Assembly: GCA_000526255.1 (NCBI GenBank)
Contig: JAFS01000002.1
Location: forward strand, 248,001-312,000
DNA: 64,000 bases
Reading direction: 5' to 3'
DNA from: Verrucomicrobia bacterium LP2A
Lineage (GTDB): Bacteria; Verrucomicrobiota; Verrucomicrobiia; Methylacidiphilales; Methylacidiphilaceae
Below, one piece after another: positions 30,303-64,000 of this stretch. Each line of letters starts with the position of its first letter. Position 1 is the first letter of the stretch. The position numbers were made by a program, and so were the translations under genes. The notes under the pieces are model-generated. The model had not been told where the DNA came from, did no database searches, and worked only from the letters and a program-made list of their open reading frames with translations.

Positions 30303-30308
30303 AGGGTT

Positions 30309-31082
30309 CTAAATCCGAACGGGGACGCCTCGCGTCCGCAGAAAGCGTTTGACCTCGGGGATCGAGACCTGCCCCGAATGAAAGATCCCAGCGGCAAGGG
30401 CCGCGTCCGCATGACCCGAAAGGAAGACCTCACCGAAATCCTCGATCTTCCCCGCACCCCCGCTGGCGACGACAGGCACAGGAAGCGCGTCCGCCAGAAC
30501 CCGAATGAGCGCCCGATCGTATCCGCTTTTCATCCCGTCGCAGTCGATGCTGTTGCAAACGACTTCTCCGGCCCCCAGCGCAACCCCTTTCTGCGCCCAA
30601 GCGAGTGCCTCCCAGGCGGTCTCCCGTCTGCCGCCGTGGCTGCAGACGCGCCAGGATCCGGGGCCCGTTCTCCGGACATCAATCGAAAGCACGATGCACT
30701 GCGCACCAAAGCGCTCTGCACCCGCGCGGATCAAGTCGGGTTCTGCGAGGGCGGCGGTATTCACGCTCACCTTGTCTGCACCCGCGAGCAGCATGTCCCG
30801 AATATCCTCGAGGGTTCGAACTCCGCCCCCTGCCGTCAGCGGAATGAAGCAACGATCCGAAACCGCGCGCAGGACGTCGAGCAGCGCCGTCCGACCCTCC
30901 ACGCTCGCCGTGATGTCGTAGAAAACGAGCTCGTCCGCCCCTTGGTCGTTGTAACGAGCGGCCAAACCGATCGGATCTCCGACGTCCCGCAAGCCCCCTT
31001 CCTCGGCCCTTCCGAACTGCTGCCCGCGGGTCACGCGCCCGGCATGCACGTCCAAGCAGGGAATGATGCGTCTAGCCAGCAC
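30309..31082 (-). CDS. hisF: Imidazole glycerol phosphate synthase, cyclase subunit
   Basis: The cyclase half of the HisHF complex; it uses ammonia from HisH to close the imidazole ring and releases AICAR. It is a TIM barrel starting LARRIIPCLDVHAGRV, with FYDITAS, PLTAGGGVRT, GADKVSVNT, SIDVRR and PVVASGGAGK in order. GTG at 31082 is preferred: it places the conserved RIIPCLDV at the normal position and follows an AAGGAGAG ribosome-binding stretch. It overlaps the trmL 3' end by 11 bp. Length 257. No other his genes are nearby, so the pathway genes are scattered in this genome. Confidence 0.93.
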   Translation of the reverse strand: MLARRIIPCLDVHAGRVTRGQQFGRAEEGGLRDVGDPIGLAARYNDQGADELVFYDITASVEGRTALLDVLRAVSDRCFIPLTAGGGVRTLEDIRDMLLAGADKVSVNTAALAEPDLIRAGAERFGAQCIVLSIDVRRTGPGSWRVCSHGGRRETAWEALAWAQKGVALGAGEVVCNSIDCDGMKSGYDRALIRVLADALPVPVVASGGAGKIEDFGEVFLSGHADAALAAGIFHSGQVSIPEVKRFLRTRGVPVRI

Positions 31083-31584
31083 CGCCGCTCTCCTTCTCGT
31101 CTTCTCGCTCCCGTCCTCCCATCGCGATCTGGCGAATCGCCTCGTAAAGGACGATCGACACCGCATTCGCCAGGTTCAGGCTCCGCACCTTCGCGTTTGG
31201 CATCGGGATCGTGAACACATTGGTTCGATATTCCTCCAAGATCCGCTGCGGCAACCCTCGGCTCTCCTGGCCGAAGAGAAGGATATCGCCGCACCGGTAG
31301 AGCTCCTCCGTATACGGGCGGTAGGGGCCGGTTTCAAAGAAAAGAAGCCTATGGCCTTCCGACGCGGCCCGGAACTCCTCCCAGGACGCCCACTGCCGGA
31401 CGTCCGCCTCTGACCAATAGTCGAGCCCGGCACGCCGCACCGCCTGGTCGCTTAAGGAGAAGGGAAGAGGGCCGATCAGATGGAGAGTCGAGCGGGTGGC
31501 GGCACAGAGTCGAGCGACATTGCCGGTGTTCGGGGGAATCCGGGGCGCGATGAGCCCGATCTCCAAAAGAGCTTCTCGGCTCAC
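31072..31584 (-). CDS. trmL: tRNA (cytidine/uridine-34 2'-O-) methyltransferase, TrmL type
   Basis: A SPOUT-class methyltransferase that 2'-O-methylates the wobble nucleotide of certain leucine tRNAs. It carries IGLIAPRIPPNTGNVARLCAAT (the trefoil-knot start), RRAGLDYW, LLFGQESRGLP, and IPMPNAKVRSLNLANAVSIVLYE, all diagnostic. The frame is open to 32067, but the upstream part is the shadow of truA. GTG at 31584 overlaps the truA stop as GTGA and gives 170 residues, close to the normal 155-160. It is part of a truA-trmL-hisF chain in which each junction overlaps. Confidence 0.9.
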   Translation of the reverse strand: MSREALLEIGLIAPRIPPNTGNVARLCAATRSTLHLIGPLPFSLSDQAVRRAGLDYWSEADVRQWASWEEFRAASEGHRLLFFETGPYRPYTEELYRCGDILLFGQESRGLPQRILEEYRTNVFTIPMPNAKVRSLNLANAVSIVLYEAIRQIAMGGREREDEKESGGAG

Positions 31585-40988: not shown

Positions 40989-41070
40989 GCGATCATCATA
41001 AGTCGCTTTTGCGGCAAGAGAAGACGGAACCTTCCCGTTTTCCGGAAAAAGTGGCAGAATGCGCGCCCGC

Positions 41071-41928
41071 ATGCTCGCTCGGATCTTTTCCACCGCACTT
41101 TGGGGAGTCGACGCGTTGCGGGTCGAAGTCGAGGTCGACAATTCCCCCGGAGCGTTTCTGACGAGGGTGGTCGGGTTGCCCGACGCCGCCGTGCGGGAAA
41201 GCCTCCATCGGGTTTCCACGGCACTGCAAAACGCCGGGTTTCGCTCGCCGATCGGCCGTACGACGATCAACCTGGCCCCGGCCAATCTCCGGAAGGAGGG
41301 GCCCAGCTTCGATCTTCCCATCGCTCTCGCAGTCCTTGGCGCCACGGGTCAACTGGAGAGCCCTTACCTGGGAGACTTCTGGGCGCTCGGCGAGCTCGCG
41401 CTCTCTGGAGAGCTTCGGCCCGTCCGCGGCGTCCTCTCCGCCACCCTGGAAGCCAAGCGGCAGCGCGCCAAGCATGTCCTGCTGCCTGCGGCCAACGCGG
41501 CGGAAGCGGCGGCCGTCTCGGGCATCCGAATCCACACGGCCGGAGACCTCGCGGAAGCCGCCGCCGTTCTACGCGATCCGGAGTCTTCGCCACTACCGGA
41601 TGGCTCGGGGTCTCGCTTGGCCTCCGAACCTTCGACCGACCTCGACTTCGCGGACGTCAAAGGACAGATCGCCGCCAAGCGGGCATTGGAAATCGCCGTC
41701 GCCGGCGGGCATAACGTGCTGCTCATCGGCCCGCCGGGAAGCGGAAAATCGATGCTCGCCCAGCGGCTTCCCTCCATCTTCCCGCCCATGACGTTAGAGG
41801 AGTCGATCGAAGCGACCCGAATCCATAGTGTCGCGGGCCTGCTGCCTAACGACGGCGGGCTGATTCGCCACCGGCCGTTTCGCTCGCCGCACCACTCGAC
41901 GTCCGACGCGGGCCTCGTCGGCGGAGGG
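41071..41928 (+). pseudogene. comM: comM/yifB Mg-chelatase-like AAA+ gene, 5' part, cut by transposon insertion
   Basis: ComM is a hexameric AAA+ helicase that helps branch migration when incoming DNA recombines during natural transformation. Present here are the N-terminal chelatase-like domain ([13 protein letters not shown], then [12 protein letters not shown]), Walker A GPPGSGKS, and the [19 protein letters not shown] segment. The normal continuation (serine, then the Walker B region) is replaced at 41929 by TGTCA and foreign sequence, after about 286 of 500 residues. The chimeric frame continues to a stop at 42015. ATG at 41071 fits the family better than ATG at 41059. The 3' half is not in the window and should flank the far end of the element. 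Confidence 0.93.
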
Positions 41929-41975
41929 TGTCATTTTTCGAAATTATTGCAATTTGGTACAAATAAATGCAATGA
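41929..41975. other. Left terminal sequence of the Tn7-like element
   Basis: Begins TGTCATTTTTCG, resembling the TGT...ACA termini of Tn7 and the TGTC(A/G)TTTTC ends of Tn5053/Tn402 relatives. An AT-rich imperfect inverted repeat follows (TTGCA and ATTTG paired with CAAAT and TGCAA, about 41946-41971), a likely transposase-binding region. GAGGG at 41924-41928 is the candidate 5-bp target duplication. The tnsE-like ATG is 37 bp further in, so its promoter may overlap the end. Confidence 0.65.
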
Positions 41976-42011
41976 AGCCGCATCATCCCGCCGATTTGGG
42001 CGCCTTGGTCC

Positions 42012-43799
42012 ATGAAGGTGATTCTTCGCAAGATCAAGAGCCGCGCCATTCCCGATGACAACCTTAGATCCGATCCGCGGCAACTGCTCGTCTGGTGGTA
42101 CGGGCCCTTGACCACCAACAGCCAAGCCAAGTCCATCCCAAAGATCGTGGTTTTCTTCCGGCCCGTTCGGGAGGATGGATCGTTGGATGATCTCTTCCTT
42201 AAACGCGAAGTCGCGTTGGCGCACCTTGGCTTATTGCGCATCGGCACGGTCTGGCAGAACGGCGTCCGCGTCGCTCGCGTCGCGCGCGGCAAGAAACGAT
42301 TCCGGGTATGGTTTGAAGAGAATGCCTGGCGGTTCGTGTCACCGTATGATTCAGTCCATAAGCACTTGGGTCCCAACCCGATTCCGAGCAGCGACTACCG
42401 CTTGGCCTACGTTTCTGACAAAAACTACCTGCTCGAGTTCAAGCTCCCAGAGGGTCGACACCTCTTCATTCCCTGCGTGGAGTTCTTCTTCCGCTGCTAC
42501 GGGCGTTCGGCGGAAGTGAAGCGGGTCCTCGCCACCTACCCCTGGACCGAGGCGGAGCCTCGGCTGTACAAGCCCTTTGACGAAGGTGCCTCGCGGCCAG
42601 GAATGTGGCCGATCAAGCTGGCGAGGCGGATACACGACGCGGACGCCGTCTTCCTGGCACATGTGAAGTATGACCCATACGCATGCCGGGCGGCGAAATG
42701 CATCTACGCGCAGGCGGAGGCGCCCTTGTCCAACACCACCCGCTATGTTTTTCTCAAGGCCGGGCCCTGGTTTCAGGGGCCGGCGGAAATTGAGGTTGAA
42801 GGCATCCACTTGGAACGGGGCGGATCCTTCCTCGGCCTTCGAATCGTCGGTTGCAGCGACCCACGAGGAAAGCCGGTTCTCCGCGACCGGGAAAATCCTT
42901 ATCTCTTCGATTCGGACGCGACTTCCAGACCTTGCGCCTCGGAGCACCTGCGGGCAAGCCTGCGGAGACCCCCGGACGTCGTTGAGTTGACCGAAGATGA
43001 GGAACCCGACGACGGACTCGCGTCGCTCGAGATCGAAGAAGAGGACGACTACAAGGTGCTAGGACAGCCAAGGGCGGTCATTCCGGTCCGCCGTGCGAGG
43101 CCGTCCGGCGGGAACGAAGCACTGATAATCGTGTCCGAGAGCGCCTCTCCGAGAATCTGTTCCACCGGAGAGCCACACGGTCGGGGGAAAGGCGTGGGTG
43201 CCGCATCCACCTGTGCGGATACCCTCTTGGAGTCACACGGGCTGCTGCACGACGTGTGGAACGCCGCGCGGCATCTGCAAAGGAAGCATCCCCACACGAT
43301 CCAAGCGGTCCACTGGTACACCTTCAAGGATGGCTTCCAGGATGCCGACCATCCGCGGCTTATTGCGCTCAAGCCGTTCCATGCCGATGGTGACGGCCCG
43401 GCTGAAGGATCCAACGCCTGGGTTTACATTGACCCGCACACCCGGACGCCCAGAGGCGCCCTTGTCATCAGGCTCCAGCTGGCCGAGCGGCCGGTATACC
43501 TTTTCGAGCTCCAGCGCAGGTTTGTTTGGAAGCCGAGCGCCGCCGCCCCGGCCGATTTTCAGAAGACATTCCGGGGGCTCGTGTTCACTCTGGATGATCA
43601 AGCAAAATTTGTCCCGTGGCTGAGAGCGCTTTTGAGCGAAGTCCGACGCGTGAAGGGCGTGCTCAAGCATTTGCGGTGGTGTCCCGGCTCCGCGCACGTT
43701 TTCAAGCATGTGTCCGCCGCCAAGGAAGACCTGCCATGCGAAGCGGCGGTGAAAAATGCGCTTAAGAAGGTCGGGATCGATCTGCGGAGAGCTGACTGA
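42012..43799 (+). CDS. tnsE: TnsE-like transposon target-selector protein
   Basis: In Tn7, TnsE binds the sliding clamp and recessed DNA ends to steer insertion into replicating conjugal DNA. This 595-residue protein keeps the TnsE outline. An N-terminal beta-rich start includes [23 protein letters not shown] (153-166) parallels the Tn7 segment that begins [21 protein letters not shown] stretch and an acidic linker at 325-346 follow. [16 protein letters not shown] (384-399) corresponds to the conserved STDEPH region, and the C-terminal domain includes [11 protein letters not shown]. The comparison is from memory of the family, not a search. The gene is separated from the other transposition genes by the whole cargo. 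Confidence 0.72.
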
Positions 43800-44262: not shown

Positions 44263-46833
44263 ATGGATATCGATCGCAAGATCAGCATGGCCATCGCTTC
44301 CGGCGAGCGAAACAAACAAGTAATGGAACTCATCCGTAACTGGTGTCGCCACGCGCGCGTCGAAAAGTTGGGCGGTGTCGGAATGGTGGAAGCGCAAACC
44401 GGACTACCCATTGGGCTCCACTCTGTGGCCTGTTCGTACTCGGCGGCCCGTAGCCTTGCGAGATGGGATCTGGCCGACGCCGCGCTCGACTTCCACGACC
44501 GCAACTGCGTGGGCTGCGCCTACCGCGACCCGATCGGTTTTCCGAACCTCTCAACACTTGTCTCCGAGCGTGATGCAACTCGCGTCAAAGAGGCTCGGAA
44601 GCGCCAGAGATGCGAGGAGGCGCTAGAGGCGCGGCGCACGGTTCGAAAAGAACGCCGGTCGGCGCTTCAAGCAATCTTGCCTTCACGCGCCGCCGACATC
44701 GTGGGCTACATCGATGAACTGGATGGGCCCAACCCTGGAGAGGCCGCCGAGAGGCTACTGCATGCCGCAAAGCTCGCCCCCGAGACGTTCGAGCCAGCGG
44801 TGATCGAGCATATGTTTGAACTGATGGAAGATGGCGAATCGCGGTTTTACGAGATTGGCCTTCAAGTCCTCCGGGAGCTCAACGTCGATCCTACACGCCT
44901 CACCCGGTGCGCGATGCGCGCCCTCGCGGCACCGTTCCCGGTTGACAAGGCGGCCGAGATTGTGGAGCTGCACGCGCCGCTAGTGGACCACACTCAGATC
45001 GCCGCCGCCTTGCCCGCGCTCATTGAGCTAGCCGATTTGAGACCAAACGCCATGAGTATACCGGCGGAGATCTTGATCCCCAAGCCGGGTCCCTTCGTCA
45101 GCTTGTATCGAGCGCACCCGCAGGCGGTGGAACTGGGCCTCCAAGGACTGCTCGCTCATAGCGAGCCCGATTATGTTAGCGCCGGGGCGCGCGGGATCGC
45201 GTGTTTGGCCGGAATTGAGCCATCGCTCCCATGCCGGTTTGCCCACTTTCTCATCGCAAGGCTGGTCCGCTCGAAAGATTCGATTCAACCCGAAACACAT
45301 GCGCCCGTGGAGAAAGAATGGCCAATGGCGGATTTGCGGGCGGCCTTGGCGCTCGCGTTTCATGTCGAGCCCGATAGGACCGATACCCTCGCTCAACAGT
45401 TTCTCGCCACCGCCCCGGGCGAAGATGAACTAGAAATCCACAAGGTTTACGAGCTCGCACTCCGCGGCCGATGTCGCGGCGACCCGAAGATAACGGCGGA
45501 CGAGGTGGATAGGACCATCCTTCGTCGATTGCTCTCGAGGGCGAACCAAACGAACTCTTACGACGTGCTCCAGGTGCTTCATGGCGCATTCACCTACGCC
45601 TCCGAAAGACTTGTCGCTCTCGGCCGGGAGGAGCTGACCCTTATTCTGGGCACTGCTCTTATGCTCAGTCAGAAGATTCACACGGCCGAAGGGCTGACCG
45701 AACCTCGGGCCAACCCTGCCTCGCCACTGGAGCGCATCAACGCTCGCGACCAGCGGATCGCTCTCCTGGATGCGCTCATCGATTGGGCCGCCTCGGCGGC
45801 GGCTGGCGACCCCTCTGCGACAGCCGAGTACATTGCTGTCCTCACAAACGTCCCTGACGAGGATGAGGAACTGCGCGCGAAACTCATAGGTCAAGCGCAC
45901 CGGTTGATGCGAACTCCGCATGGGCTGAACGCGACGCTGCCGACCGTTTACAGGGCACTGTTCGCCTCCTCGGGGCGCGTCCGTGCTGCCGTCGCGGCTG
46001 CCATCGGCCAGCTCGACAGGAAGACAAAGGACGACCTTCCGAAGTTGGTCTACGAGGCTCTGGTAGCTCAACTTGCCGACCCTTGTGCGATGGCGCATCA
46101 GTCGGCGGTCCATGCAATCGAGCGCACGGACCTTCCGGAGAACTTGAAGGACGAGGCGCGTAGGGCGATCCTGAATCTCGTTGAGACCTATCATAAGAGG
46201 CGCCGGGATGAACGCGTTTTGGTCGATTGCATTTGCTTGTACATGGACCGCTACGCAACGGATGCTGAAAGAGACGAGCTTATCGATACATTCCTGAAAA
46301 TCGTCGACGAACTGAAAGCGGACCATATCGTCGGTAAGCTTTGGAGGCTGGCTGCACATTTTTGTCATGAATCCCGCTTTGCTGACGTTGTGGTTCGCGT
46401 GGTTGAGGAAGATCGAGCCGTGCCCCATTGGGAGGACGAACTCGTCGAAACCTTGAACGGATTGCCGGAACACGAGATTTATCGACACCGGGCGCGTCTG
46501 GAAAAGGTCGGGAGCCAACCCAACGTTTCCTGGACCCTCTCACGCAGGCTGATCGAGACCCTAACCCGGGCAGGGGCATGGCCGGAGGCAGCAAGGCTTG
46601 CGAAAACGCTTTACACGCGGATACCTGCTACGGTTGAAAATCGAGCCCGAAAGCTCGCCATCAATCGATGGCGCATTGCCGCGCGTTTTGAGGCGGCCAT
46701 CGCCGCGGGTGAACTCGAGAACATTGCCCAACTTTCCCAGGAATGGAGACAAAACGAAAAGGACATTGAAGCCGATCGGGTAGCACATGAACAACGTCGA
46801 CGTCCTTTCCCGGGCGTACCCGGCACGCATTAG
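44263..46833 (+). CDS. Large HEAT-like helical-repeat protein with N-terminal cysteine motif, unknown family
   Basis: I do not recognise this 856-residue protein. Residues 1-100 contain four cysteines (C28, C57, C82, C85; the last two in RNCVGC) that could bind zinc or an iron-sulfur cluster. Residues 110-140 are strongly basic and helical. From about 150 to 800 it is almost all alpha-helix with HEAT/ARM-like repeats (for example RVRAAVAAAIGQLDRK). There are no transmembrane segments and no ATPase motifs. A stop 15 bp upstream fixes the ATG at 44263 as the first start. It overlaps the next gene, a predicted nuclease, by 47 bp, so the two form one translational unit. A scaffold or sensor role in a defence system is inferred only from context. 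Confidence 0.8.
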   Translation: MDIDRKISMAIASGERNKQVMELIRNWCRHARVEKLGGVGMVEAQTGLPIGLHSVACSYSAARSLARWDLADAALDFHDRNCVGCAYRDPIGFPNLSTLVSERDATRVKEARKRQRCEEALEARRTVRKERRSALQAILPSRAADIVGYIDELDGPNPGEAAERLLHAAKLAPETFEPAVIEHMFELMEDGESRFYEIGLQVLRELNVDPTRLTRCAMRALAAPFPVDKAAEIVELHAPLVDHTQIAAALPALIELADLRPNAMSIPAEILIPKPGPFVSLYRAHPQAVELGLQGLLAHSEPDYVSAGARGIACLAGIEPSLPCRFAHFLIARLVRSKDSIQPETHAPVEKEWPMADLRAALALAFHVEPDRTDTLAQQFLATAPGEDELEIHKVYELALRGRCRGDPKITADEVDRTILRRLLSRANQTNSYDVLQVLHGAFTYASERLVALGREELTLILGTALMLSQKIHTAEGLTEPRANPASPLERINARDQRIALLDALIDWAASAAAGDPSATAEYIAVLTNVPDEDEELRAKLIGQAHRLMRTPHGLNATLPTVYRALFASSGRVRAAVAAAIGQLDRKTKDDLPKLVYEALVAQLADPCAMAHQSAVHAIERTDLPENLKDEARRAILNLVETYHKRRRDERVLVDCICLYMDRYATDAERDELIDTFLKIVDELKADHIVGKLWRLAAHFCHESRFADVVVRVVEEDRAVPHWEDELVETLNGLPEHEIYRHRARLEKVGSQPNVSWTLSRRLIETLTRAGAWPEAARLAKTLYTRIPATVENRARKLAINRWRIAARFEAAIAAGELENIAQLSQEWRQNEKDIEADRVAHEQRRRPFPGVPGTH

Positions 46834-48235
46834 CGCCGTTGAGGCGCTTCTTCGGGCGTCGAAGCCGCGAGGCGCCAGTGCGGATGAGCTTCGTAGAATT
46901 GCGGAAGCGCTGGACGAGGGGGGAGCACGCCATGGGTGGCCAACGACGGCAGCGTTCGGGGGCCTGTTACGGATCGCGGCGTCGATGGTGGAGTGGCGAA
47001 ACGCGAGATTGGCTGCGGAGCCCGATGCGCAACGCTTCCTGGATGCCGCGAAAGATGCTTATAAAATTTGGCGCAGCGAATACGGCAAGGCGCCCGAAGT
47101 GTCCGCCCTCCTGAGCGCCAGCGAGCAGATCGCCTCGGTAAGCTCCGTCGACGGTGTGGGTCCCGTCTGCGCAGGACTGGCGCGTGTTCCGCTGCCGATC
47201 GGAGGGTTTGCAGACAAGAGTCGAACGTCTTGCCATGCTCGCCACCCCGATGGGCAGGAAATCGAGCCGCCGAAGCCACTTGAACCTGTCTTCGCCTATC
47301 TCCTCTTCACTGTCGACAAAGAGCCGGCGAATGACGTCCACTTTTTGGAACCGCACGTGATGCACGATTTGGACGTAGAGATTCGAGTGTCTCACTGGCC
47401 CGAGGGCGCAAAGGAGCTCCGATTGTTTCCGGTCTCCGTCGAACCGCCTTCGTCCTACGAGTTTCCGACGTTCCTTTTTGAGCGCCCGCCGGGGGAACCG
47501 CCATATCGCTGGACTCAGCGGGGACGAGCGCAGTTGAAAGTCCCGCAGGCGGCGCAGGCTAGAGCGTACGAGTTTCGGTACACGGCTGCGTTCGATGTTC
47601 CACCTCATGAACCGATCGACGTGATTGGACAGCGAGACTTACGATTCAAGAGCTACGACCCTGCGCTGGCGAGTGTGACCGGGTACCAGGAGGTCGACAA
47701 GAAGCTCGAGCACATCCGCGACCAACTGAGCAAGGCGCGTGTTCCGCCCGAGGATATCAAGAATGCGCTGCTGGTGCTCAACTGCCTTGGGAACCTTGCG
47801 GCGCGCTCCATACAGGATGCTCTGTTCAAGACATCGACTCGGGAAGCGGACTTTCAAGCGCAAGTCCGAGACGAACTTCGCCGTCAGCCCCACATCGGGG
47901 CGCAACTGGAAGAGCATCCAAAGAGCTCGGGCGGCATTGCAGATTTGTCCTTCCGAGGAATCAGGATCGAGCTCAAGTATAGAGACAAAAGAGCTCTCTC
48001 GCTGGAAGATTGCAAACCGTTTCTCGCTCAAACCGCCATGTATGCCATGGGCTCAGGCAAGCGGGTCGCGATTCTGTGCGTGCTCGACAACAGCCTGAAG
48101 CCCAATGGACCAGGACCATTTCCGGCCCCCGATGGGATCGAGCTGCTCCCGCACTCCACAGGGACGGCGAGCGTGCATGTCGTGACGGTCTTGATTCAGG
48201 GCAATCTACCATCGCCCAGTAGGCTATCGCGCTGA
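46787..48235 (+). CDS. Predicted PD-(D/E)xK nuclease partner of the HEAT-like protein
   Basis: A 482-residue protein of no family I can name. Residues 1-120 are helical; 160-280 are beta-rich (VFAYLLFTVDKEPANDV to YEFRYTAAFDVPP). Residues 350-435 read as a restriction-endonuclease fold: an acidic helix (FQAQVRDELRRQ), then GGIADLSFRGIRIELKYRD, giving Asp386 and Glu395-x-Lys397 as the PD-(D/E)xK triad. A QTAMYA helix with Gln415 follows, and then a hydrophobic strand (RVAILCVLD). ATG at 46787 lies 47 bp inside the HEAT-like gene. The pairing of a large repeat protein with a nuclease on a mobile element suggests an anti-phage or anti-plasmid effector; this is inference. Confidence 0.75.
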   Translation: MNNVDVLSRAYPARISAVEALLRASKPRGASADELRRIAEALDEGGARHGWPTTAAFGGLLRIAASMVEWRNARLAAEPDAQRFLDAAKDAYKIWRSEYGKAPEVSALLSASEQIASVSSVDGVGPVCAGLARVPLPIGGFADKSRTSCHARHPDGQEIEPPKPLEPVFAYLLFTVDKEPANDVHFLEPHVMHDLDVEIRVSHWPEGAKELRLFPVSVEPPSSYEFPTFLFERPPGEPPYRWTQRGRAQLKVPQAAQARAYEFRYTAAFDVPPHEPIDVIGQRDLRFKSYDPALASVTGYQEVDKKLEHIRDQLSKARVPPEDIKNALLVLNCLGNLAARSIQDALFKTSTREADFQAQVRDELRRQPHIGAQLEEHPKSSGGIADLSFRGIRIELKYRDKRALSLEDCKPFLAQTAMYAMGSGKRVAILCVLDNSLKPNGPGPFPAPDGIELLPHSTGTASVHVVTVLIQGNLPSPSRLSR

Positions 48236-48299: not shown

Positions 48300-49944
48300 C
48301 CGCCATTTCTTACGAAGGCCGACCGTAGGCGGAAGCAAGAAAGCCGGCAAAAGAGCATAGGAAAGGCCGACTTTCTCTAGCATATTGAGACTTTTGGGTT
48401 TACAGCCCATTTTTCGCGTCGGGGGAAAGCGGGATTTCCCTAGGTCGGGTTTCGAGTGATGGGGGCGCGATCCTCTTACGAGAAGCGGATCGGAAGATCG
48501 GTTTATGAAGACGGCTGGAGCGTGCTTCCGGGATCGACGCCATCCGGGGCGCATTGTGCATCAGCTGCGGGAGATGCAGGTGCCGCGCATCTTTGGGATT
48601 GCGCCGGGCTACAAGGATCTCAATGACCACGAGCAGCTGCGTACCGATCCTTTGGTGCCTCTCCTGAGCGGCAAAAGGGATCGGGAAGCGGATCTGGCGG
48701 GCAAGAGCACGCTGGAGCCGCCTGGAACTGGTAGGTCGAAGCGAACGGTACCATAGGATCGATTCCTTGGCCGAGGCGATCGACCGGCTATTGGTGGATC
48801 TCTCCCTTCGCTTGGCATCCCCAGCCTCCCAAGGAGGTGGTGCTCGGGTTTGATGCGACCGACATCGCTCTTTACGGGCACCAGCCCGAGCGCTTCTTCC
48901 TTGGGGTTTCCGATGCGTATTGTTATTTGCCGCTCTCCATCTTCGCCGAAGATCAGCTCCTCGGCGTGCGGCTTCGGCGATCGAACCAGGATGCGGCGGA
49001 GGGATCCCTTGCCGAGATCCTCCGGATCGTGGGACAACTGCGCATCCATTGGCCCGAGGTCAAGATCGTGCTCCGGGCCGACTCGGGCTTCTGCCGGGAA
49101 GAGATCATGGCCTGGTGCGAAGCCAATCCGGTCGACTTCCTCTTCCGCCTGATTCGCAACGAGCGCTTGTGGCGACCCATTGAGGCGTCGATGGAGCAAG
49201 CCCCTCGTCTGCACGAGTCCACGGGCAAACCGGCTCGCGTCTTTTCCGAGTTTGCCGATCGCACCTTGAGCAGCTGGTCGAGGGAGCGCCCAAGTGCTCT
49301 CCAAAGCCCAGTACTTGGAGAAAGGAAAGAATCCGCGCTTTGTCGTCCCCTCTCTTCCCACCGAGGAGTGGGCCCAGGCCCTCTACGAGAAGCTCTACTG
49401 CGCCCGTGGAGAGATGGAGAATCGGATCAAGGAACAGCTTTACCTCTTTGCCGACCGGCTCTCGACCGCGCAAATGGCCAGCAATCCGCTTCGCCTCTCC
49501 TTCTCGGCTTTGGCCTATGCCCTGGTCGAACGGCTGCGACGGCTGGCTCTGCAAGGAACGCAGTGGGCCAACGCCCAGGTCGACACCCTCCGGCTCAAGC
49601 TCTTCAAGATCGGCACGCTGGTCCGTGTCAGTGTCCGAAGCGTCCTCTTTTCGATGAGCAGCGCCTATCCTTGGAAGCACCTCTTCCCCCATGTCTTCCG
49701 GATGCTGCGTTGCTGAGCATCCACAAAAACCAGAGCGCTTCCCCCCTTCGGCAAGAGCCTCCCATCGGGCGGAGCCTTGTTCCCAAAGCGGATTTTTGCC
49801 CTTTACAGAGCTCGCATTAAGCCAAATCGAGCAAAAATCTTGCTCCATCCCCACTCACGAAGACCATTTCCTCGCCGAACATCCTCTCAATCGACTCGGG
49901 GCTTCCTTTCTTGCGCAAAACCTCGCGTTGGTGAGAAATGGCGG
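48300..49944 (+). mobile_element. IS1380-family element, decayed copy 1
   Basis: Runs from CCGCCATTTCTTACGAAGG at the left to GTGAGAAATGGCGG at the right, about 1,645 bp, which is 64 bp shorter than the intact copy next door. Flanks are CTAG (48296-48299) and CTAA (49945-49948). Part of the missing sequence removes the transposase start region. It abuts copy 2, with only the CTAA between them. Confidence 0.85.
48387..49716 (+). pseudogene. IS1380-family transposase, frameshifted and lacking its start
   Basis: Closely similar at the DNA level to the intact transposase at 50082-51431, but reading passes between frames at several places (around 48505, 48720, 48830 and 49290). The leader and ATG are deleted just after 48380. 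Segments such as LRADSGFCREEIMAWCEAN (49075-49130) are still readable. It cannot encode an active enzyme. Confidence 0.88.
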
Positions 49945-49948
49945 CTAA

Positions 49949-51657
49949 CCGCCATTTCTCACGAAGGCCGACCAAAACGGGAAGCAAAAAGCCTGCAAAA
50001 GAGCATAGGAAAGGCCGCCTTTCCCTGGTATAAAGTGCGTGAACGATACGTAATTACAACCAGGAAGGAAAGCGGCCTTCGATGACAGAGTGTAGCCAAG
50101 AGACTTTTGGATTTACAGCCCATTTTTCGCGTCGGGTGGAAGCGGGATTTACCGCGGGTCGGGTTTCGAGTGATGGGGGCGCGATCCTCTTACGAGAAGC
50201 GGATCGGAAGATCGGGTTGTTAAGACGGCTGGAGCGTTGCTTCCGGGATCGACGCCATCCGGGGCGCATTGTGCATCGGGTGCGGGAGATGCTAGCGCAG
50301 CGCATCTTCGGGATTGCGCTGGGCTACGAGGATCTCAATGACCACGAGCAGCTGCGTACCGATCCTTTGGTGGCTCTCCTAAGCGGTAAAAGGGATCTGG
50401 AAGCGGATCTGGCGGGCAAGAGTACGCTCAACCGCCTGGAACTGGTAGGTCGAAGCGAACGCTACCACAAGATCGACTACTCGGCCGAAGCGATCGACCG
50501 GCTGTTGGTCGATCTCTACCTTGAATCGCATCCCCAGGCTCCCAAGGAGGTGGTGCTCGATCTGGATGCGACCGACATCCCTCTTTACGGCCATCAGCCC
50601 GAGCGCTTCTTCCATGGCTATTATGATGCGTATTGTTATTTGCCGCTCTACATCTTCGCCGAAGATCAGCTCCTCGGCGTGCGGCTTCGGCCATCGAACC
50701 AGGATGCGGCGGAGGGATCCCTTGCCGAGATCATCCGGATCGTGGGACAACTCCGCACCCATTGGCCCGAGGTCAAGATCGTGCTCCGGGCCGACTCGGG
50801 CTTCTGCCGGGAAGAGATCATGGCCTGGTGCGAAGCCAATCAGGTCGACTTCCTCTTCGGCCTGATTCGCAACGAGCGCTTGTGCCGACCCATTGAGGCG
50901 TCGATGAAGCAGGCCCGTCGTCTGCACGAGTCCACGGGCAAACCGGCTCGCGTCTTTTCCGAGTTTGCCTATCGCACCTTGAGTAGCTGGTCGAGGGAGC
51001 GCCGAGTGGTCTCCAAAGCTGAGTACTTGGAGAAAGGAAAGAATCCGCGCTTTGTCGTCACCTCTCTCTCCACCGAGGAGTGGCCCGCCCAGGCCCTCTA
51101 CGAGAAGCTCTACTGCGCGCGCGGAGAGATGGAGAATCGGATCAAGGAACAGCTCTACCTCTTTGCCGAGCGCCTCTCGACCGCGCAAATGGCCAGCAAT
51201 CAGCTTCGCCTCTACTTTTCGGCTTTGGCCTATGCCCTGGTCGAAGCGCTGCGACGGCTGGCTCTGCAAGGAACGGAGTGGGCCAACGCCCAGGTCGACA
51301 CCCTCCGGCTCAAGCTCGTCAAGATCGGCACGCTGGTCCGTGTCAGCGTCCGACGCGTCCTCTTGTCGATGAGCAGCGCCTATCCTTGGAAGCACCTCTT
51401 CACCCACGTCTTCCAGATGCTGCGTTGCTGAGCATCCCTGAAAACCAGAGCGCTTCCCCCTGCAGTAGAGCCTCCCATCGGGCGGAGCCTTGTTCCCAAA
51501 GCGGATTTTTGCCCTTTACAGAGCTCGCATTAAGCCAAATCGAGCAAAAATCTTGCTCCATCCCCACTCACGAAGACCCTTTCCTCGCCGAACATCCTCG
51601 CAATCGACTCGGCCCTTCCTTTCTTGCGCGAAAGCTCGCGTTGGTGAGAAATGGCGG
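49949..51657 (+). mobile_element. IS1380-family insertion sequence, intact copy 2
   Basis: A 1,709-bp element with 14-bp perfect terminal inverted repeats (CCGCCATTTCTCAC at 49949-49962 and its complement at 51644-51657). It is flanked on both sides by the 4-bp direct repeat CTAA (49945-49948 and 51658-51661). It encodes one full-length transposase. About 225 bp of non-coding sequence lies between the stop codon and the right end, conserved in the other copies. Confidence 0.92.
50082..51431 (+). CDS. IS1380-family DDE transposase
   Basis: A 449-residue cut-and-paste type transposase. The catalytic acids are seen in LDLDATDIPLYG (Asp162 or Asp165), LRADSGFCREEI (Asp238) and the C-terminal GEMENRIKE glutamate with its trailing lysine, a pattern of the IS4-like/IS1380 group. 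The ATG at 50082 is preceded by AAGGAAAG. The frame is intact over the full length, so it could be active and could have mobilised the defective derivatives nearby. Confidence 0.93.
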   Translation: MTECSQETFGFTAHFSRRVEAGFTAGRVSSDGGAILLREADRKIGLLRRLERCFRDRRHPGRIVHRVREMLAQRIFGIALGYEDLNDHEQLRTDPLVALLSGKRDLEADLAGKSTLNRLELVGRSERYHKIDYSAEAIDRLLVDLYLESHPQAPKEVVLDLDATDIPLYGHQPERFFHGYYDAYCYLPLYIFAEDQLLGVRLRPSNQDAAEGSLAEIIRIVGQLRTHWPEVKIVLRADSGFCREEIMAWCEANQVDFLFGLIRNERLCRPIEASMKQARRLHESTGKPARVFSEFAYRTLSSWSRERRVVSKAEYLEKGKNPRFVVTSLSTEEWPAQALYEKLYCARGEMENRIKEQLYLFAERLSTAQMASNQLRLYFSALAYALVEALRRLALQGTEWANAQVDTLRLKLVKIGTLVRVSVRRVLLSMSSAYPWKHLFTHVFQMLRC

Positions 51658-54523: not shown

Positions 54524-56110
54524 TCACGGTGAACCGGCCGCAGGCACTCCTTCACCTTGGTGGCCATGATGATCTTGGCGGGTCGCTTTCAATGCCGCAG
54601 GTGCAACGGTCTTGAGAAAATAAGCTTCGCAGAACAGCTTAATGAAAGAGACCTCCTTCAGTGTGATCACGGCGCCGTCGAATTTCTTCGCCTCGAAGGC
54701 TTTCGTGAGCTCGATGAAGATGTCGCGTACTTCTTGTGGCATCGCAGGGTACAGATCGCCGAGAAGCTTGGAGAAGATTGCATCGAACGCCGTGCTCCCA
54801 TCCCATTCGCCGACATCTCTCATCATCGCCTTGAGGCTTTCGTGGAAACTCCCGTAAGCCTGCAGCTCGCATTGCCAATGCACGTCGTTGAGGGAAAGGA
54901 AGGTGATGCCGGCGATATAAAGGTTGCAAGCGGTGTGCTTTTCGCGCTGGCCCGGCCCGGCCAGGGCCGCGAGACACATGGCGACGCGACCTAAATCTTC
55001 TTCTGTGAGGACACGGTTGGCGCCCCAATCGATCTTGAGCGAAGGACTGGGCTCGATCGTCATCCGCATCTTGGTGTCCAGGTCTTGAAGGGTCTCATAG
55101 TATCGGCTGGTTGGCTCGGGCATCCGCCACCACCAAAAGCCCATGGTGCCGATATTCAGCGCGGTGACGAAAAGCCGAGCCATAACCCAGCAGTGTAGCC
55201 ACAGTGCTTCGGCCGGCACGTTATCGCCCAGGATCAGCTCCAAGATGAGCTGGTTTTTCTTGTCGGGAACCGGGCAGAGCTTTGGCCAATCGTACTTCTG
55301 GTTCCAGGCCTTCAAGACCTTGGGCCGGATGGAATGCCAGCCGCTCAAAATCTTTACGTGCATCTTCCACTTGTCGCGCGTCTTTTGGGTTGGAAGGCTC
55401 CGGCTGCGCTGTAATTCCTGCTGAATGGCGGCTTGACCCTTAGCTTCGGCATCGGCGAATTCCTCCCTGAGCCATCTTATCCAGCCGCGCACATCTTTGA
55501 GCTCGGCAAGCTTCGCCATAGAGGGGCCAGAAAAGAGATACGGGCTCCGTGCCGGGTCATCGGCGGCGTTGAGAAACCATTGCTGAATCTCCCGGTCTTC
55601 GCGCTCAATGGTGGGATGGGGTACCTGAGCCTCGGCCTTGCCAAGCAAGTCGAGTGCGAGCTTGATCAGCCGTTCACCTTGCTCGAATGAAATCTTCTCG
55701 CGGGGTATACCAAGCCCGTCGCTGTTGCTCTCCACATAGATGCCCGCGAGTCGGCTGGAGTGAATGACGCGAGCAAGCTTCTGCATTTCTTCCAACGACT
55801 CTTTCGTGACCTGGCGCTGGAGAAAGTCGGCGCCGAAGAATGCCCAGAACAGCTTCTTGACGTGATCTTGTGTATGCTTCGTCGGCCAGCTTGGAGGCTC
55901 AGGACTCTGGGCCGAAATGCTTTCCAAGCCAATAAGCTCGCGCCGCCCGAGTTCCTCCAGCGCGAGCGTTGCGAGGTGATAGGCGATATGCGGCTTGCCG
56001 CCGGATTGTGCGGCTCTCGCGACGTCGAGCAAATCGCGGGCATGGTCGACACATGCGTGCATCGCGGCAAGAGCCTGGTGTCCGATGGTCCCCGCAACCG
56101 TGTCGTTCAT
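54524..56110 (-). CDS. AbiV-family HEPN-domain protein (putative abortive infection)
   Basis: The N-terminal 180 residues fit the AbiV-type HEPN domain: ALAAMHACVDHARDLL, then KPHIAYHLATLALEELGRREL at residues 39-59, which is the typical EE(L/I)G helix. AbiV in lactococci blocks phage translation. The remaining 350 residues are mostly helical (for example IELTKAFEAKKFDGAVITL) and not recognisable. ATG at 56110 is preferred; the open frame extends to 56305, but that part is the shadow of an IS5 remnant on the same strand. Both sides are IS debris, so it was probably delivered by recombination between ISs. Length 528. Confidence 0.72.
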   Translation of the reverse strand: MNDTVAGTIGHQALAAMHACVDHARDLLDVARAAQSGGKPHIAYHLATLALEELGRRELIGLESISAQSPEPPSWPTKHTQDHVKKLFWAFFGADFLQRQVTKESLEEMQKLARVIHSSRLAGIYVESNSDGLGIPREKISFEQGERLIKLALDLLGKAEAQVPHPTIEREDREIQQWFLNAADDPARSPYLFSGPSMAKLAELKDVRGWIRWLREEFADAEAKGQAAIQQELQRSRSLPTQKTRDKWKMHVKILSGWHSIRPKVLKAWNQKYDWPKLCPVPDKKNQLILELILGDNVPAEALWLHCWVMARLFVTALNIGTMGFWWWRMPEPTSRYYETLQDLDTKMRMTIEPSPSLKIDWGANRVLTEEDLGRVAMCLAALAGPGQREKHTACNLYIAGITFLSLNDVHWQCELQAYGSFHESLKAMMRDVGEWDGSTAFDAIFSKLLGDLYPAMPQEVRDIFIELTKAFEAKKFDGAVITLKEVSFIKLFCEAYFLKTVAPAALKATRQDHHGHQGEGVPAAGSP

Positions 56111-56230
56111 AAACGATGCGCCAGCCAAAGCGGCCCGCAAAGCCGTGAGCGACTCAGGATCTCTGCAAACCCCGGCATCCCGCTCGCGAGCCCGCCAGGA
56201 TCGGGTGCGGGAATGAGGTGGCCTCCAAGG

Positions 56231-56456
56231 GCTGATGCAGGGATGAGTTGCTAGTGGCGGAGATCTCGGGTCCGGCCATTTCCCGCGCCAGCATGACCAG
56301 GGCATGATTGATCTGATCGAGCGTATCGTCGCGACAGGAGCGATAGAAATACCCCTGCACGGTCATGAATGTTGCGAACTCCTTCGGGATGTGCTGCCAC
56401 TGGCAGCTGGTCGCCAGCATGTAAAAATTAGCCTCCACAGTCGTTCGCAGCGACAC
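56231..56456 (-). pseudogene. IS5-family transposase fragment
   Basis: The frame reading FYMLATSCQWQHIPKEF, then TVQGYFYRSCRDDTLDQINHAL, matches the N-terminal part of IS5/IS427-group transposases, whose usual text is CQWRxxPxDFPxxxTVYxYF. The start and the whole catalytic domain are missing. It lies just upstream of the AbiV-like gene. Confidence 0.75.
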
Positions 56457-56759
56457 CGTTCGTGGAATCGGACCTCAATGCAGCGGTGCCGCATGAACGG
56501 TTTGATCAGGGTCTATTGGGCATTGATGATGCTGCTTGCGTAGAACAATCCGGCCCTGCAAGGTCGTTGCCAAGCGATTTCTCTCCGGGCCATCGTGTTT
56601 CCGTTTGTCCTTCCAAACGAACTGAATCACAACCTACTGAAAATCGTTCAACTATGCCTTTTGGGTCAGTTCCGCTAGCGGATGATTGGGTTAAGCCACG
56701 GTTTGGGCTCTCGTTCATGTCGTTCGGGGTGCGCCCCGCCACCCAACGCACTGGGCTAA

Positions 56760-57236
56760 CCGCCATTTCTCATATCACTAAGGTTGACTGCGGCGGGCGG
56801 GAAGAAATCCTGAGGAAGAGCATGGGAAAGGCCGCCTTTCTCTGGCACCGAACGGAGTGGGCCCAGGCCCAGGTCGATACCCTCCGGCTCAAGCTCTTCA
56901 AGATCGGCACGCTGGTCCGTGTCAGCGTCCGACGCGTCCTCTTGCCGATGAGCAGCGCCTATCCTTGGAAGCACCTCTTCACCCATGTCTTCCGGATGCT
57001 GAGTTGCTGAGCATCCACAAAAACCAGAGCGCTTCCCCCTGCAGCAGAGCCTCCCATCGGGCGGAGCCTTGTTTGCAAAGAGGATTTTTGCCCTTTACAG
57101 AGCTCGCATTAAGCCAAATCGAGGAAAAATCTTGCTCCATCCCCGCTCACGAAGACCCTTTCCCCGCCGAACATCCTCGCAATCAACTCGGGCCTTCCTT
57201 TCTTGCGCGAAACCTGGCGTTGGTGAGAAATGGCGC
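56760..57236 (+). mobile_element. IS1380 derivative with large internal deletion (about 477 bp)
   Basis: It has both ends of the IS1380 element (CCGCCATTTCTCA at 56760 and GTGAGAAATGGCG at the right) but lacks most of the transposase. The interior jumps from the leader (near 56850) to the last 150 bp of the gene (WANAQ-like to the stop at 57008) and keeps the 3' non-coding part. Flanks are CTAA on the left and CTAG (57237-57240) on the right. It could be moved in trans by the intact copy. Confidence 0.82.
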
Positions 57237-59072: not shown

Positions 59073-59702
59073 TTAGCCCTTCTTGCCATCCCTTTTCTTG
59101 ATTGCGGCACGCGATGTTTCTGGCAGCCCGGCGAACAATGCTTCGATCTGCTTTGGGCGTGTAATTCTTTCTTGGATGATGAAATTGATCATCTCAAAGA
59201 GCTGCTGCGCGATCTCCGGAGTGTCATTGATGTCGATCGCTCCTGGATGGACCGCGTTGTTGCCGACCACACGGCAGAAGTCAAAGGCCTTCTGTACCTC
59301 AATGGGCAAGCCCTTATCTACCATGGACTTGATATCGTCGTTGATGTTTTCGCCCTTTTCTCCCAGAACAGACATCAGTTTCTGTGTGGCTAAGCGTAGC
59401 AACGCTGCGGCCGCGCGTGGTGACGCCGCAACGATGGCCCGCGCCTCTTCTACTTCGCGGCGTATCTCTTGTGGCATGTCCTCATGAGCTCGTGGTGCCG
59501 TGGAAGAGGCAGGCGCGACAAGCTTCTCGCAGTGCCAGTAGCTGACTTCATGGCAAGAGTCGCACTCACAAAAGTCAATCCCGGCTTCTTCGGTGCCTCT
59601 AGGGGCACGACAAAGATTGCCCCAGCGTTGCTTTGCGAAAACTCCGCAATGAACACAATGAAACGCCTCTTCTTGGTAAGCAGGAGGTATGAACTTCGAC
59701 AT
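59073..59702 (-). CDS. DUF4145-domain protein with N-terminal zinc ribbon
   Basis: A 209-residue protein. Residues 15-57 have CVHC and CECDSCH cysteines that look like a zinc ribbon. Residues 85-195 match DUF4145, a HEPN-like helical domain often found in or beside defence and restriction proteins (AAALLRLATQKLMSVLG, then FCRVVGNNAVHPGAID, then FEMINFIIQE). The Arg...Asn-Ala-Val-His segment resembles the HEPN RxxxxxxH site with different spacing. ATG at 59702. The coding DNA is noticeably less GC-rich than the core genome, in keeping with transfer. Confidence 0.78.
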   Translation of the reverse strand: MSKFIPPAYQEEAFHCVHCGVFAKQRWGNLCRAPRGTEEAGIDFCECDSCHEVSYWHCEKLVAPASSTAPRAHEDMPQEIRREVEEARAIVAASPRAAAALLRLATQKLMSVLGEKGENINDDIKSMVDKGLPIEVQKAFDFCRVVGNNAVHPGAIDINDTPEIAQQLFEMINFIIQERITRPKQIEALFAGLPETSRAAIKKRDGKKG

Positions 59703-60148: not shown

Positions 60149-61576
60149 TCACGCTCCGCTCGCCCATTTCCCGGCAATCCAATAGCTCTCCCTTCCCATT
60201 ACGACTCGGAAGCCATCCCTTTCCGCCGCAATGACACAGCGGCTGGCCTCCTTTGCGCTGATCTTCCTGTGGTGGAAATACTCCAACGCGACCTGAATCA
60301 ACCGCCTGGGCAGGTGATTCTGGTCATAGCCATTCCGCAAGAGCAGCATGAGCTCCTTCTCAAGCCGTCTCCTGCGGGCCTGCGCGGTTCGCTTCCCATC
60401 ACTCCTGGCCACGAGCGCAAGTCCATGCGTGCGGTTAAGAAAACCGACAAACCCCGTGATCGCCGCCTCCTGCCCAGGCGAATCGAGCATGTATCGGTCG
60501 AGCGCCACCTGGTCCGGAATAGCCCCTCCTTTCGGACCGGCCTTCAGCAGCAACGCCGCGGCGGGCCGCAGCGCGAGCCTGGCGGATCGGATGGATGTCT
60601 TGCCGACGTCTACCCTTGCCATCAGCGTTTCCTTGTAGGCGGCCAGCAACCGGGCTCCAACGGAGCCTGCGGGAAAAAGCATGAGCAGCGCATCGATGCG
60701 GCGCCGCTCGCAATCCTCCTCGCGCAGCGCAGGATCCGGCTCGACCGATCTCGCCGATTGCAGCCACCGCATCGGCAATCTGACACGGCGCAGCCCCTCC
60801 GCTCCAAAATGCCGCAGCAGCTCGCGGTAAGCCGGCGCCCGCCCCCAACGCTTCTCGATCTCAAGGAAGAACGGCAGGTAGCGATGAATCGCGAGCGCCG
60901 CTTTGTGGGGACCCGCCTCCAGGATCAGCCATTCTCCGAACTCGCTGAACTCATTGCCCATTTCCTTGCTTGAGAAGGCCGCCCGGTCCAGGCGAATGCG
61001 CCTCCGGCATGTTTCCGTCCAGTAGCACTTCTCGCAAACCTTGCCCCTGCCGGCCGGCATGGGCCTGCCGCAGGACCCGCAAGGCACCTCCCCCTTCTCC
61101 AGGCAGGCCTTGCACAACCTCCTCCCGTCCGGCGCCTCCACGAGCCGCCTGTAACGGCGGCAGGCTCCGCATGTGCCATGATCCGCGCAAGCGCACCGGG
61201 GGCACAGCCGAAGGTCGTGCCCCAGCCGCTTGACCCTCGTCAGCCTCGAGGAAGGCTTCCCGCACGCTTGGCAGGGCTCAGTCTCGCGGAAATGCGGCGC
61301 GCAGGCAGCGCAAACCGGACCGTAGGGAGTGATTTTGCCGATCTCGTACCCGGTCTTGCCGCAGCGCACGCACGCCTTTCCCTTCTCGCACTCGCGGCAT
61401 GCGGCTCCGGGATCGCTTTTCGGGAGCCTCGCCATCTCGCCGCATTTGGGGCACGCCCGTCGCGTGAACACCCTGGCGTAGCATCTCGCGCAGTACCGGC
61501 GGCCCTTATGGACGCGATGAATCTTGACCACGCCTCTCCCGCATTCCCCGCAAGGCTGGAATCTTTTCCCCGTCAC
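60149..61576 (-). CDS. tnsF: TnsF-like comM target selector (zinc ribbons plus degenerate tyrosine recombinase)
   Basis: A 475-residue protein downstream of tniQ. Residues 1-190 hold twelve CxxC pairs (from C9/C12 to C181/C184), enough for about six zinc ribbons. Residues 200-475 are helical and lysine/arginine-rich, resembling the core-binding and catalytic parts of tyrosine recombinases (for example FLNRTHGLAL and PRRLIQVALEYFHH). I see no Arg...His-x-x-Arg...Tyr tetrad, so it is likely catalytically dead. TnsF with an inactivated tyrosine recombinase domain is the known comM selector of Tn6022-like transposons. Position and insertion site here agree. The start is GTG at 61576, overlapping the tniQ stop by 4 bp. 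Confidence 0.78.
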   Translation of the reverse strand: MTGKRFQPCGECGRGVVKIHRVHKGRRYCARCYARVFTRRACPKCGEMARLPKSDPGAACRECEKGKACVRCGKTGYEIGKITPYGPVCAACAPHFRETEPCQACGKPSSRLTRVKRLGHDLRLCPRCACADHGTCGACRRYRRLVEAPDGRRLCKACLEKGEVPCGSCGRPMPAGRGKVCEKCYWTETCRRRIRLDRAAFSSKEMGNEFSEFGEWLILEAGPHKAALAIHRYLPFFLEIEKRWGRAPAYRELLRHFGAEGLRRVRLPMRWLQSARSVEPDPALREEDCERRRIDALLMLFPAGSVGARLLAAYKETLMARVDVGKTSIRSARLALRPAAALLLKAGPKGGAIPDQVALDRYMLDSPGQEAAITGFVGFLNRTHGLALVARSDGKRTAQARRRRLEKELMLLLRNGYDQNHLPRRLIQVALEYFHHRKISAKEASRCVIAAERDGFRVVMGRESYWIAGKWASGA

Positions 61577-62658: not shown

Positions 62659-63548
62659 CACACCACGATCTCCCGGACTCCGCGGGTCGGGCGCACCCAC
62701 GCCTTGGCTTGAATGATCTCCTTATCGATGGCCGCCTTCCCGCTCAGGATAGCTTCGATGCCGCATTCGACCAGGAGGCGGTGCAGGTCGCCCAAATTCC
62801 CGCCGGAAATCGCGTGAAGCGCGGAGGCCAACTCGGGCTGATGCAGCCCCGAGGGCTCCTTGAGCGGCAAAACCTGCTCGAACGAGGCCAGCAACTTCCG
62901 AAAATCGGCAGTGAGTTCCCAGAGTGGCAGGGGGAGAATATCGAAGCGACTGGCGTGCTGGGGGTCTGTGTGCAGCACGCGCACGGCCTCACGCGTGCCC
63001 ACCCCGACAATCGGAATCATCAACTCGTTGCATAGCAGCTTGATCGCGTTCATGACCTCGCGCTGCTTGATCGGGCTGCCCGTCAGCAGGGAGTGAAACT
63101 CGTCGACGATCAACAACCGGGTGCGGCACGCGCGGAGTTGATGGATGACCTGGTAGCGCAGTTTCGGCGCCGGGTCCGCCGCGCGATAAGGCGCCCAGAA
63201 TCGCTCCAGGATCCCGATGTAGAAACCCTTCTCGTCCGCGCTTGGCGGCGCCTCGGTCAGCATGACCGGCTTCACGGGCTCGCCATCCTCGCCGACATAG
63301 CCCTGGCCGTGCAGATCCACGAAGCGCCGCACGATCGTCGTCTTCCCGTTGTTGGGCTCGCCGACGATCAGGAGATTGGGCATGCGCGGCCGCGTGGGTC
63401 GATCCATCAGGCTGCGCAAGGCTTGGATGGTTCGGTTTGCCAGGCCGTAGCCGATCCATCGTGGCTGATCCATGAAGGCAATGCGCTCCTTGACCGGCAG
63501 AGCGATAATATGGCGGAAATCTGGATGAATATGTGCAAATGTGCTCAT
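62658..63548 (-). CDS. tniB: TniB/TnsC-like AAA+ ATPase
   Basis: The ATP-dependent regulator that assembles on target DNA and activates the transposase. Walker A is GEPNNGKT at residues 63-70 and Walker B is RLLIVDEFHSLL with Asp149-Glu150. The sensor region (IPIVGVGTREAVRVL) and the C-terminal lid are in place. Length 296 matches TniB of the Tn5053/Tn6022 groups more than the longer TnsC of Tn7. Its ATG overlaps the tniA stop by 4 bp and its stop overlaps the tniQ ATG by one base. Confidence 0.92.
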   Translation of the reverse strand: MSTFAHIHPDFRHIIALPVKERIAFMDQPRWIGYGLANRTIQALRSLMDRPTRPRMPNLLIVGEPNNGKTTIVRRFVDLHGQGYVGEDGEPVKPVMLTEAPPSADEKGFYIGILERFWAPYRAADPAPKLRYQVIHQLRACRTRLLIVDEFHSLLTGSPIKQREVMNAIKLLCNELMIPIVGVGTREAVRVLHTDPQHASRFDILPLPLWELTADFRKLLASFEQVLPLKEPSGLHQPELASALHAISGGNLGDLHRLLVECGIEAILSGKAAIDKEIIQAKAWVRPTRGVREIVV

Positions 63549-64000
63549 TGGATCTCTTCAAATGGCTCGACGCCGCCTTCGGCCCATTCCTGCGGAGCTG
63601 GTGCCGGCGGCGGCTGCGCGCTCGGCGCGGCCGGAGACACCTTCTTCTCGTGCTCGCGGCGGCGCTGCGCCAGCCGCCTCGCCTTTCTGGTCTTTTCCTT
63701 CGACTCCTCCACCTTGCTGCGCAGCTCGGTCACGGCGCGAAGGATTTGCACTTGGTTGATGGAACGGCAGCCCTCTTTGCGCAAGCGCTCCTTGGCCCGT
63801 TCGACCTCCCAGATGCTCATTGGCGGAAGGGACTGATCGGCGAACGGAATCTTAAAATACTGTCCAATGACGGGGTCCCTGAACCAGACCGCGCTGATGT
63901 CGCGCGGGTCCCTTCTGAAGATGAATTCGCGTTTTTTCCCGCTGCCGTCTGGATCCCGATCGTTGATCCAGGGCCGTAGCGCCTCGGCGTAGTAGGTCAT
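63545..64000 (-). CDS. tniA: TniA/TnsB-like DDE transposase, C-terminal part
   Basis: Only the last 151 residues are in the window; the gene runs off the right edge. The FRRDPRDISAVWFRDP segment is the Mu-type C-terminal beta-barrel of TniA/TnsB transposases. A long basic coiled stretch (ERAKERLRKEG to KTRKARRLAQRRREHE) and a Pro/Ala-rich tail ending EEIQ follow; the tail is expected to contact TniB. The DDE catalytic domain and any upstream tnsA/tniC gene lie beyond 64,000. It heads the tniA-tniB-tniQ-tnsF operon. Confidence 0.9.
   Translation of the reverse strand: MTYYAEALRPWINDRDPDGSGKKREFIFRRDPRDISAVWFRDPVIGQYFKIPFADQSLPPMSIWEVERAKERLRKEGCRSINQVQILRAVTELRSKVEESKEKTRKARRLAQRRREHEKKVSPAAPSAQPPPAPAPQEWAEGGVEPFEEIQ

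Follow-up and report, generated by a model that had tools for sequence, protein, structure and literature searches.

A divergent TnsE near one end of a comM-inserted, Tn6022-type element in Methylacidimicrobium

The window analysed here is a 64,000-nucleotide stretch of the source genome (G000); features beyond its last base are given by their positions on the contig that carries it (C2). The window holds a Tn7-like element of 24,334 bp that splits comM and extends 2.3 kb past the final base. Near the left end of the element lies an intact open reading frame, which encodes 595 amino acids from an ATG start with no internal stop. The features of the locus are as follows.

41059..41928, plus strand: left part of comM (YifB-type Mg-chelatase AAA ATPase), residues 1-290 (Pfam Mg_chelatase/ChlI, E 1.4e-38; TIGR00368)
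41924..41928: left copy of the target-site duplication GAGGG; its identical counterpart directly follows the right end TGACA
41929..42011: left end of the transposon, with TGTCATTTTTCGAAATTATTGCAA and a further repeat of similar sequence, AAATAAATGCAA
42012..43799, plus strand: tnsE (divergent, Tn6022 type), from hhalign against Tn7 TnsE, structure matches to 5d16/5d17/9d5l, and homologs
TnsE residues about 20-90: possible N-terminal OB-like region
TnsE residues 153-157: IPxxE motif
TnsE residues 384-389: STGEPH motif
TnsE residues about 405-590: C-terminal TnsE domain
44263-46833, plus strand: OloA of an Olokun-like defence pair, cargo beside tnsE (PADLOC 2.6e-50)
46787-48235, plus strand: OloB of the Olokun-like pair (PADLOC 3.2e-46)
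48837-49820 (or from 48400), plus strand: nested IS1380-family copy, decayed (NF033539, PF13701)
50082-51431, plus strand: nested IS1380-family copy with intact transposase (NF033539, PF13701)
54524..56305, minus strand: HEPN/AbiV-like cargo, start codon uncertain, between IS1380 copies (PF18728 6.5e-16; PADLOC AbiV 5e-5)
56462-57010: third IS1380-family copy
59073..59702, minus strand: PD-T7-4-like defence protein (DUF4145), cargo beside tnsF (PADLOC 5.5e-89)
60149..61576, minus strand: tnsF (zinc fingers and C-terminal region), comM target selector (homologs in related records; family description in PMC10293859)
61573..62700, minus strand: tniQ (PF06527 9.8e-20), single copy in the genome
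62658..63548, minus strand: tnsC (TniB; PF05621 6.1e-70)
63545..64000 and on to C2:313449, minus strand: tnsB, C-terminal part in the window (Mu-transpos_C above cut-off, rve below cut-off)
C2:313442-314125, outside the window: tnsA (TnsA N and C Pfam domains above cut-off)
C2:314263-314942, past the window: right part of comM

The left end of the element starts with TGTCATTTTTCGAAAT at 41929 (C2:289929), where comM sequence ending in GGCGGAGGG passes into TGTCATTTTTCGAAATTATTGCAA, and tnsE begins 83 bp inside. The right end lies at C2:314262, 2262 bases beyond the last base of the window, and the sequence to its right begins GAGGGCCTCGCC, so that GAGGG is duplicated. A genome-wide search for the end pattern returned exactly two matches, at 41929 and, reversed, at C2:314262, and the reversed-pattern control returned none. 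When the flanks are joined, comM reads in its normal frame again (...LVGGG-PRLIPGEVSLAHHGVLFLDE). It is intact in five of seven Methylacidimicrobium genomes and split in the source genome and in M. tartarophylax (G006), which has its own relative of the tnsE product, 46% identical.

Leftward from the right end, the core genes run TnsA, TnsB, TnsC/TniB, TniQ, TnsF, a full Tn6022-type set, and 16.35 kb separate the tnsE stop from the minus-strand tnsF. The sequence-only reading of this locus, which had placed a TnsE-like gene beside the left end and about 16 kb from tniQ and a tnsF relative at the other end of a comM element, was thus accurate on arrangement. The three IS1380-family copies inside the element differ in decay, the middle one alone having an intact transposase. 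Elsewhere in the window, at 27285-31214, a 1309-aa ORF without a Pfam or NCBIfam match is overlapped by opposite-strand ORFs of 435 and 285 aa.

The 595-aa protein had no family match in Pfam, NCBIfam or PADLOC, and a PDB sequence search with it returned nothing useful. The Pfam TnsE_C model (PF18623) matched neither this protein nor any of six relatives scanned, but it matched Tn7 TnsE at 6.7e-54. Pairwise BLASTP against Tn7 TnsE was not significant, with no single-sequence BLAST match. We initially read the absent family matches as possible evidence against TnsE and, after the profile and structure tests, put them down to divergence. PF18623 is a detection model and does not define TnsE function; since published Tn6022 TnsE is less than 10% identical to canonical TnsE (PMC10293859), the missing match marks a divergent subfamily rather than exclusion from TnsE.

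Comparison of profiles related the protein to Tn7 TnsE. Aligning 17 Tn6022-type TnsE sequences with eight Tn7-type sequences in hhalign yielded P 4e-5 over 371 collinear columns, most of the length, and placed the IPxxE and STGEP motifs of the two groups in register. With match columns taken from the first sequence the score was 67.4, against a maximum of 33.0 among 150 column shuffles and 14.3 for a reversed profile. The search with TnsE families suggested in the sequence-only reading was positive by profile-profile alignment and negative with PF18623. The motifs named in that reading, IPxxE and STxEPH, are real and common to the 595-aa protein and Tn7 TnsE, where they read HIPQLELAR and VSTDEPHLGG. 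Furthermore, of 62 residues invariant across 16 relatives, 59 are present in the Methylacidimicrobium protein.

Predicted structure agrees with this assignment. The models had middling confidence (pLDDT 64 for the AlphaFold2 model of the full-length protein, 71 for the C-terminal domain alone). In a structure comparison of the full model, the TnsE C-terminal structures 5d17, 5d16 and 9d5l ranked first with Z 9.2-9.4, aligning 129-138 of 157-158 residues at rmsd 3.9-4.5, and the next unrelated entry had Z 4.5; the C-terminal domain alone gave Z 8.7-8.9 to the solved TnsE structures and 5.0 to the next entry. Foldseek also placed TnsE C-terminal domains on top for the full model (probability 0.96), with E-values that are weak on their own (0.05 for the full model, 0.16 for the C-terminal domain). 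Residues 20-90 showed weak OB-fold matches (Z 3.5-4.4) including PriB (Z 4.4), and PriB-like OB domains have been reported for the TnsE N-terminus (PMC10293859). Together, the profile, structure, motif and invariant-residue results support calling the 595-aa protein a TnsE of the divergent Tn6022 subfamily, bearing out the TnsE-like identity first proposed from the letters of the sequence.

Compared with Tn7 TnsE (the E. coli R721 copy, 5d16 and 5d17; the Thiopseudomonas protein, 9d5l), the Methylacidimicrobium protein shares the C-terminal fold, both motifs and a collinear profile, but lacks significant pairwise identity and a PF18623 match, and its gene stands outside the tns operon, alone at the opposite end of the element. 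Tn7 TnsE binds the sliding clamp; attachment to DNA with recessed ends and steering of insertions to replicating DNA are further properties expected of a TnsE. A corresponding role of TnsE in the Methylacidimicrobium element, in targeting replicating DNA, is inferred from this relationship.

Relatives of the protein are spread over several groups of bacteria and plasmids. Genome homologs occur in Halomonas/Vreelandella, Cobetia, Acinetobacter, Alcaligenaceae, Halothiobacillus and Methylacidimicrobium; identity is 42-46% to the Halomonas, Methylobacter and M. tartarophylax proteins and only 23-26% to those of Acinetobacter. The protein also matched 35 plasmid records, the majority of which encode relatives. 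Matches on enterobacterial plasmids (E 7e-3) were set aside, TnsE identity being unconfirmed there; the one that we inspected, located beside an IS21 element, was without Pfam hits. A scan of viral contigs found no relatives, a scan of 388 genomes of the phylum found none outside the source genome, and among 369 genomes sampled across the class around a Halothiobacillus MAG there were only three. Decayed tnsE pieces occur elsewhere in the source genome (G000:C1:320726-321172 and G000:C2:95343-95447; 84% and 74% protein identity) and in a sister species (locus L009, genome G004; 82% protein identity), with stops in the longer ones. They point to earlier insertions in this genus, apart from the copy now in comM.

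Gene order is conserved among the relatives. TnsF, a cysteine-rich protein, has homologs, with best matches of 36-59% identity, in 21 of the 26 records with a TnsE relative, and in 20 of these 21 tnsE and tnsF are convergent and 0.1-33 kb apart, with distances calculated by hand from coordinates and both genes taken to share a contig wherever the tools number contigs differently; in the remaining record they lie on separate contigs. As in those relatives, tnsE of the Methylacidimicrobium element is near the left end on the strand opposite the core genes. Faure et al. (2023) described this position for Tn6022-like TnsE, near the left end, on the opposite strand and far from the other components, and reported that its structure agrees with that of canonical TnsE (PMC10293859); a 2024 review found TnsE homologs to be almost universal in comM-targeting elements (PMC11406308). 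A tnsE far from the core genes is therefore standard in the Tn6022 group and has been described before, and the earlier impression that it was unusual does not hold.

The element resembles Tn6022-type elements such as Acinetobacter johnsonii Tn6022 and AbaR backbones (PMC10293859) in grouping tnsABC, tniQ and tnsF on one strand at its right end, with a divergent tnsE near the left end on the other strand, and in its insertion into comM with a 5-bp duplication and ends starting TGTCA. It differs in its host, a member of the Verrucomicrobia, and in its cargo, which comprises defence genes (Olokun, PD-T7-4, AbiV-like) whereas Tn6022 and AbaR carry resistance genes. What is new is the host genus Methylacidimicrobium, outside Proteobacteria, together with a hint of an overlap between the comM and tnsE frames; in other respects this is an ordinary Tn6022-group element.

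We consider it highly probable that the gene encodes a TnsE that selects targets for the Tn6022-type, Tn7-like transposon residing in comM of Methylacidimicrobium, in which TniQ and TnsF would lead to comM and TnsE to replicating DNA. Judging by its family, TniQ with TnsF would direct cut-and-paste insertion by TnsA, TnsB and TnsC into comM; Faure et al. named TnsF and showed that it directs comM insertion, and homing to comM by TniQ with TnsF was shown for AjTn6022 (PMC10293859). By the same family reasoning, TnsE would take this transposase to DNA that is being replicated, chiefly plasmids undergoing conjugation, so that the two selectors would provide a homing route into comM and an exit route onto mobile DNA. 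The 2024 review lists the targets of Tn6022 as comM, through TniQ and Orf3, and conjugal plasmids, presumably through TnsE (PMC11406308). The published two-selector design is now placed outside Proteobacteria.

Natural insertions outside comM fit two targeting routes and back the existence of a second one. On pC13-2, a conjugative plasmid of Acinetobacter, a 34-kb Tn6022-type element lies outside comM between perfect 5-bp repeats of its target (AATGT). Elements of the family also occupy unrelated chromosomal non-comM sites in two Vreelandella genomes, again with perfect 5-bp duplications (AGCAG and ACTGG). TnsE is the inferred cause of these insertions, part of which could stem from relaxed targeting by TniQ and TnsF. 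The pC13-2 element (loci L052/L053; NZ_KU549175.1, about 37665-71435) encodes TnsE, TniQ and TnsF along with CBASS-like and copper-resistance genes. A closely related element in Zobellella taiwanensis (L026, upstream of 9921) lies inside an ORF beside reverse transcriptase-like and phage-integrase-like genes, apparently in a different mobile or defence region and not in comM.

The protein might instead have kept the TnsE fold and ancestry and lost target selection, with TniQ and TnsF taking the element into comM and nowhere else and tnsE travelling as a passenger. Mechanistic work on TnsE is limited to prototypic Tn7, no experiment being known for any Tn6022-type TnsE (PMC11406308), the published comM transposition assay succeeded with just tnsABC, tniQ and tnsF (PMC10293859), and decayed tnsE pieces occur elsewhere in the source genome. 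Yet the frame is intact with nearly all otherwise invariant residues retained, elements of many hosts keep TnsE, and some relatives sit at non-comM sites flanked by clean duplications, and we regard a passenger tnsE as unlikely. Far more improbable still is that the gene is cargo or part of a nested element and resembles TnsE by chance. This would account for its lack of matches in Pfam, NCBIfam and PADLOC and could invoke the IS1380 copies close by; these copies, however, lie downstream of tnsE and do not flank it, and profile and structure both pick out TnsE far above controls.

Position argues against a nested origin. Across many independent comM-inserted elements with varying cargo, tnsE stands about 60-130 bp from the left end, and in many related loci, including Halomonas-group elements, the left comM fragment likewise stops at residue 290, a short way from tnsE. 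This constancy contradicts the nested-element alternative raised in the sequence-only reading, which we dropped; tnsE belongs to the comM element. A TnsE selector remains our preferred reading, and the two other checks proposed in the sequence-only reading, comparison with the C-terminal structures and gene order in related comM elements, both agreed with the TnsE assignment.

The junction of comM and tnsE has a further feature. The interrupted comM frame meets no stop codon within the left end and terminates at a TGA (42013-42015) that overlaps the tnsE ATG (42012-42014) as ATGA. The overlap recurs in M. tartarophylax (L019), whose left end is 3 bp shorter than the 83-bp end with ATGA kept, in L058, and in L034/L057 if the start is taken at the ATG homologous to the L058 one. 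The ends in these ATGA elements are 80, 83, 119 and 131 bp long, differences that are in-frame. In the Halomonas group the comM frame is likewise open, with a stop 11 nt before tnsE, and the ATGA overlap is absent at four loci (L031/L064, L065, L073 and L079).

Resampling put the probability of an open frame on its own at 0.15-0.41 per end, and we estimate phase, openness and overlap jointly at roughly a few per cent per element; the four ATGA cases represent about two lineages. Coupling was dropped as a main claim once further lineages showed that the overlap is not universal, and the samples above, with few relatives among 388 and 369 genomes, amount to shallow sampling for this idea. We therefore treat the overlap as a lead and not a result. 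Tentatively, and from the reading frames, TnsE could be translated from the comM message as its second product, by translational coupling, which would tie the exit route to expression of a natural-transformation gene; we hold this to be possible and rather doubtful. If true, it would offer an idea of what turns the exit route on.
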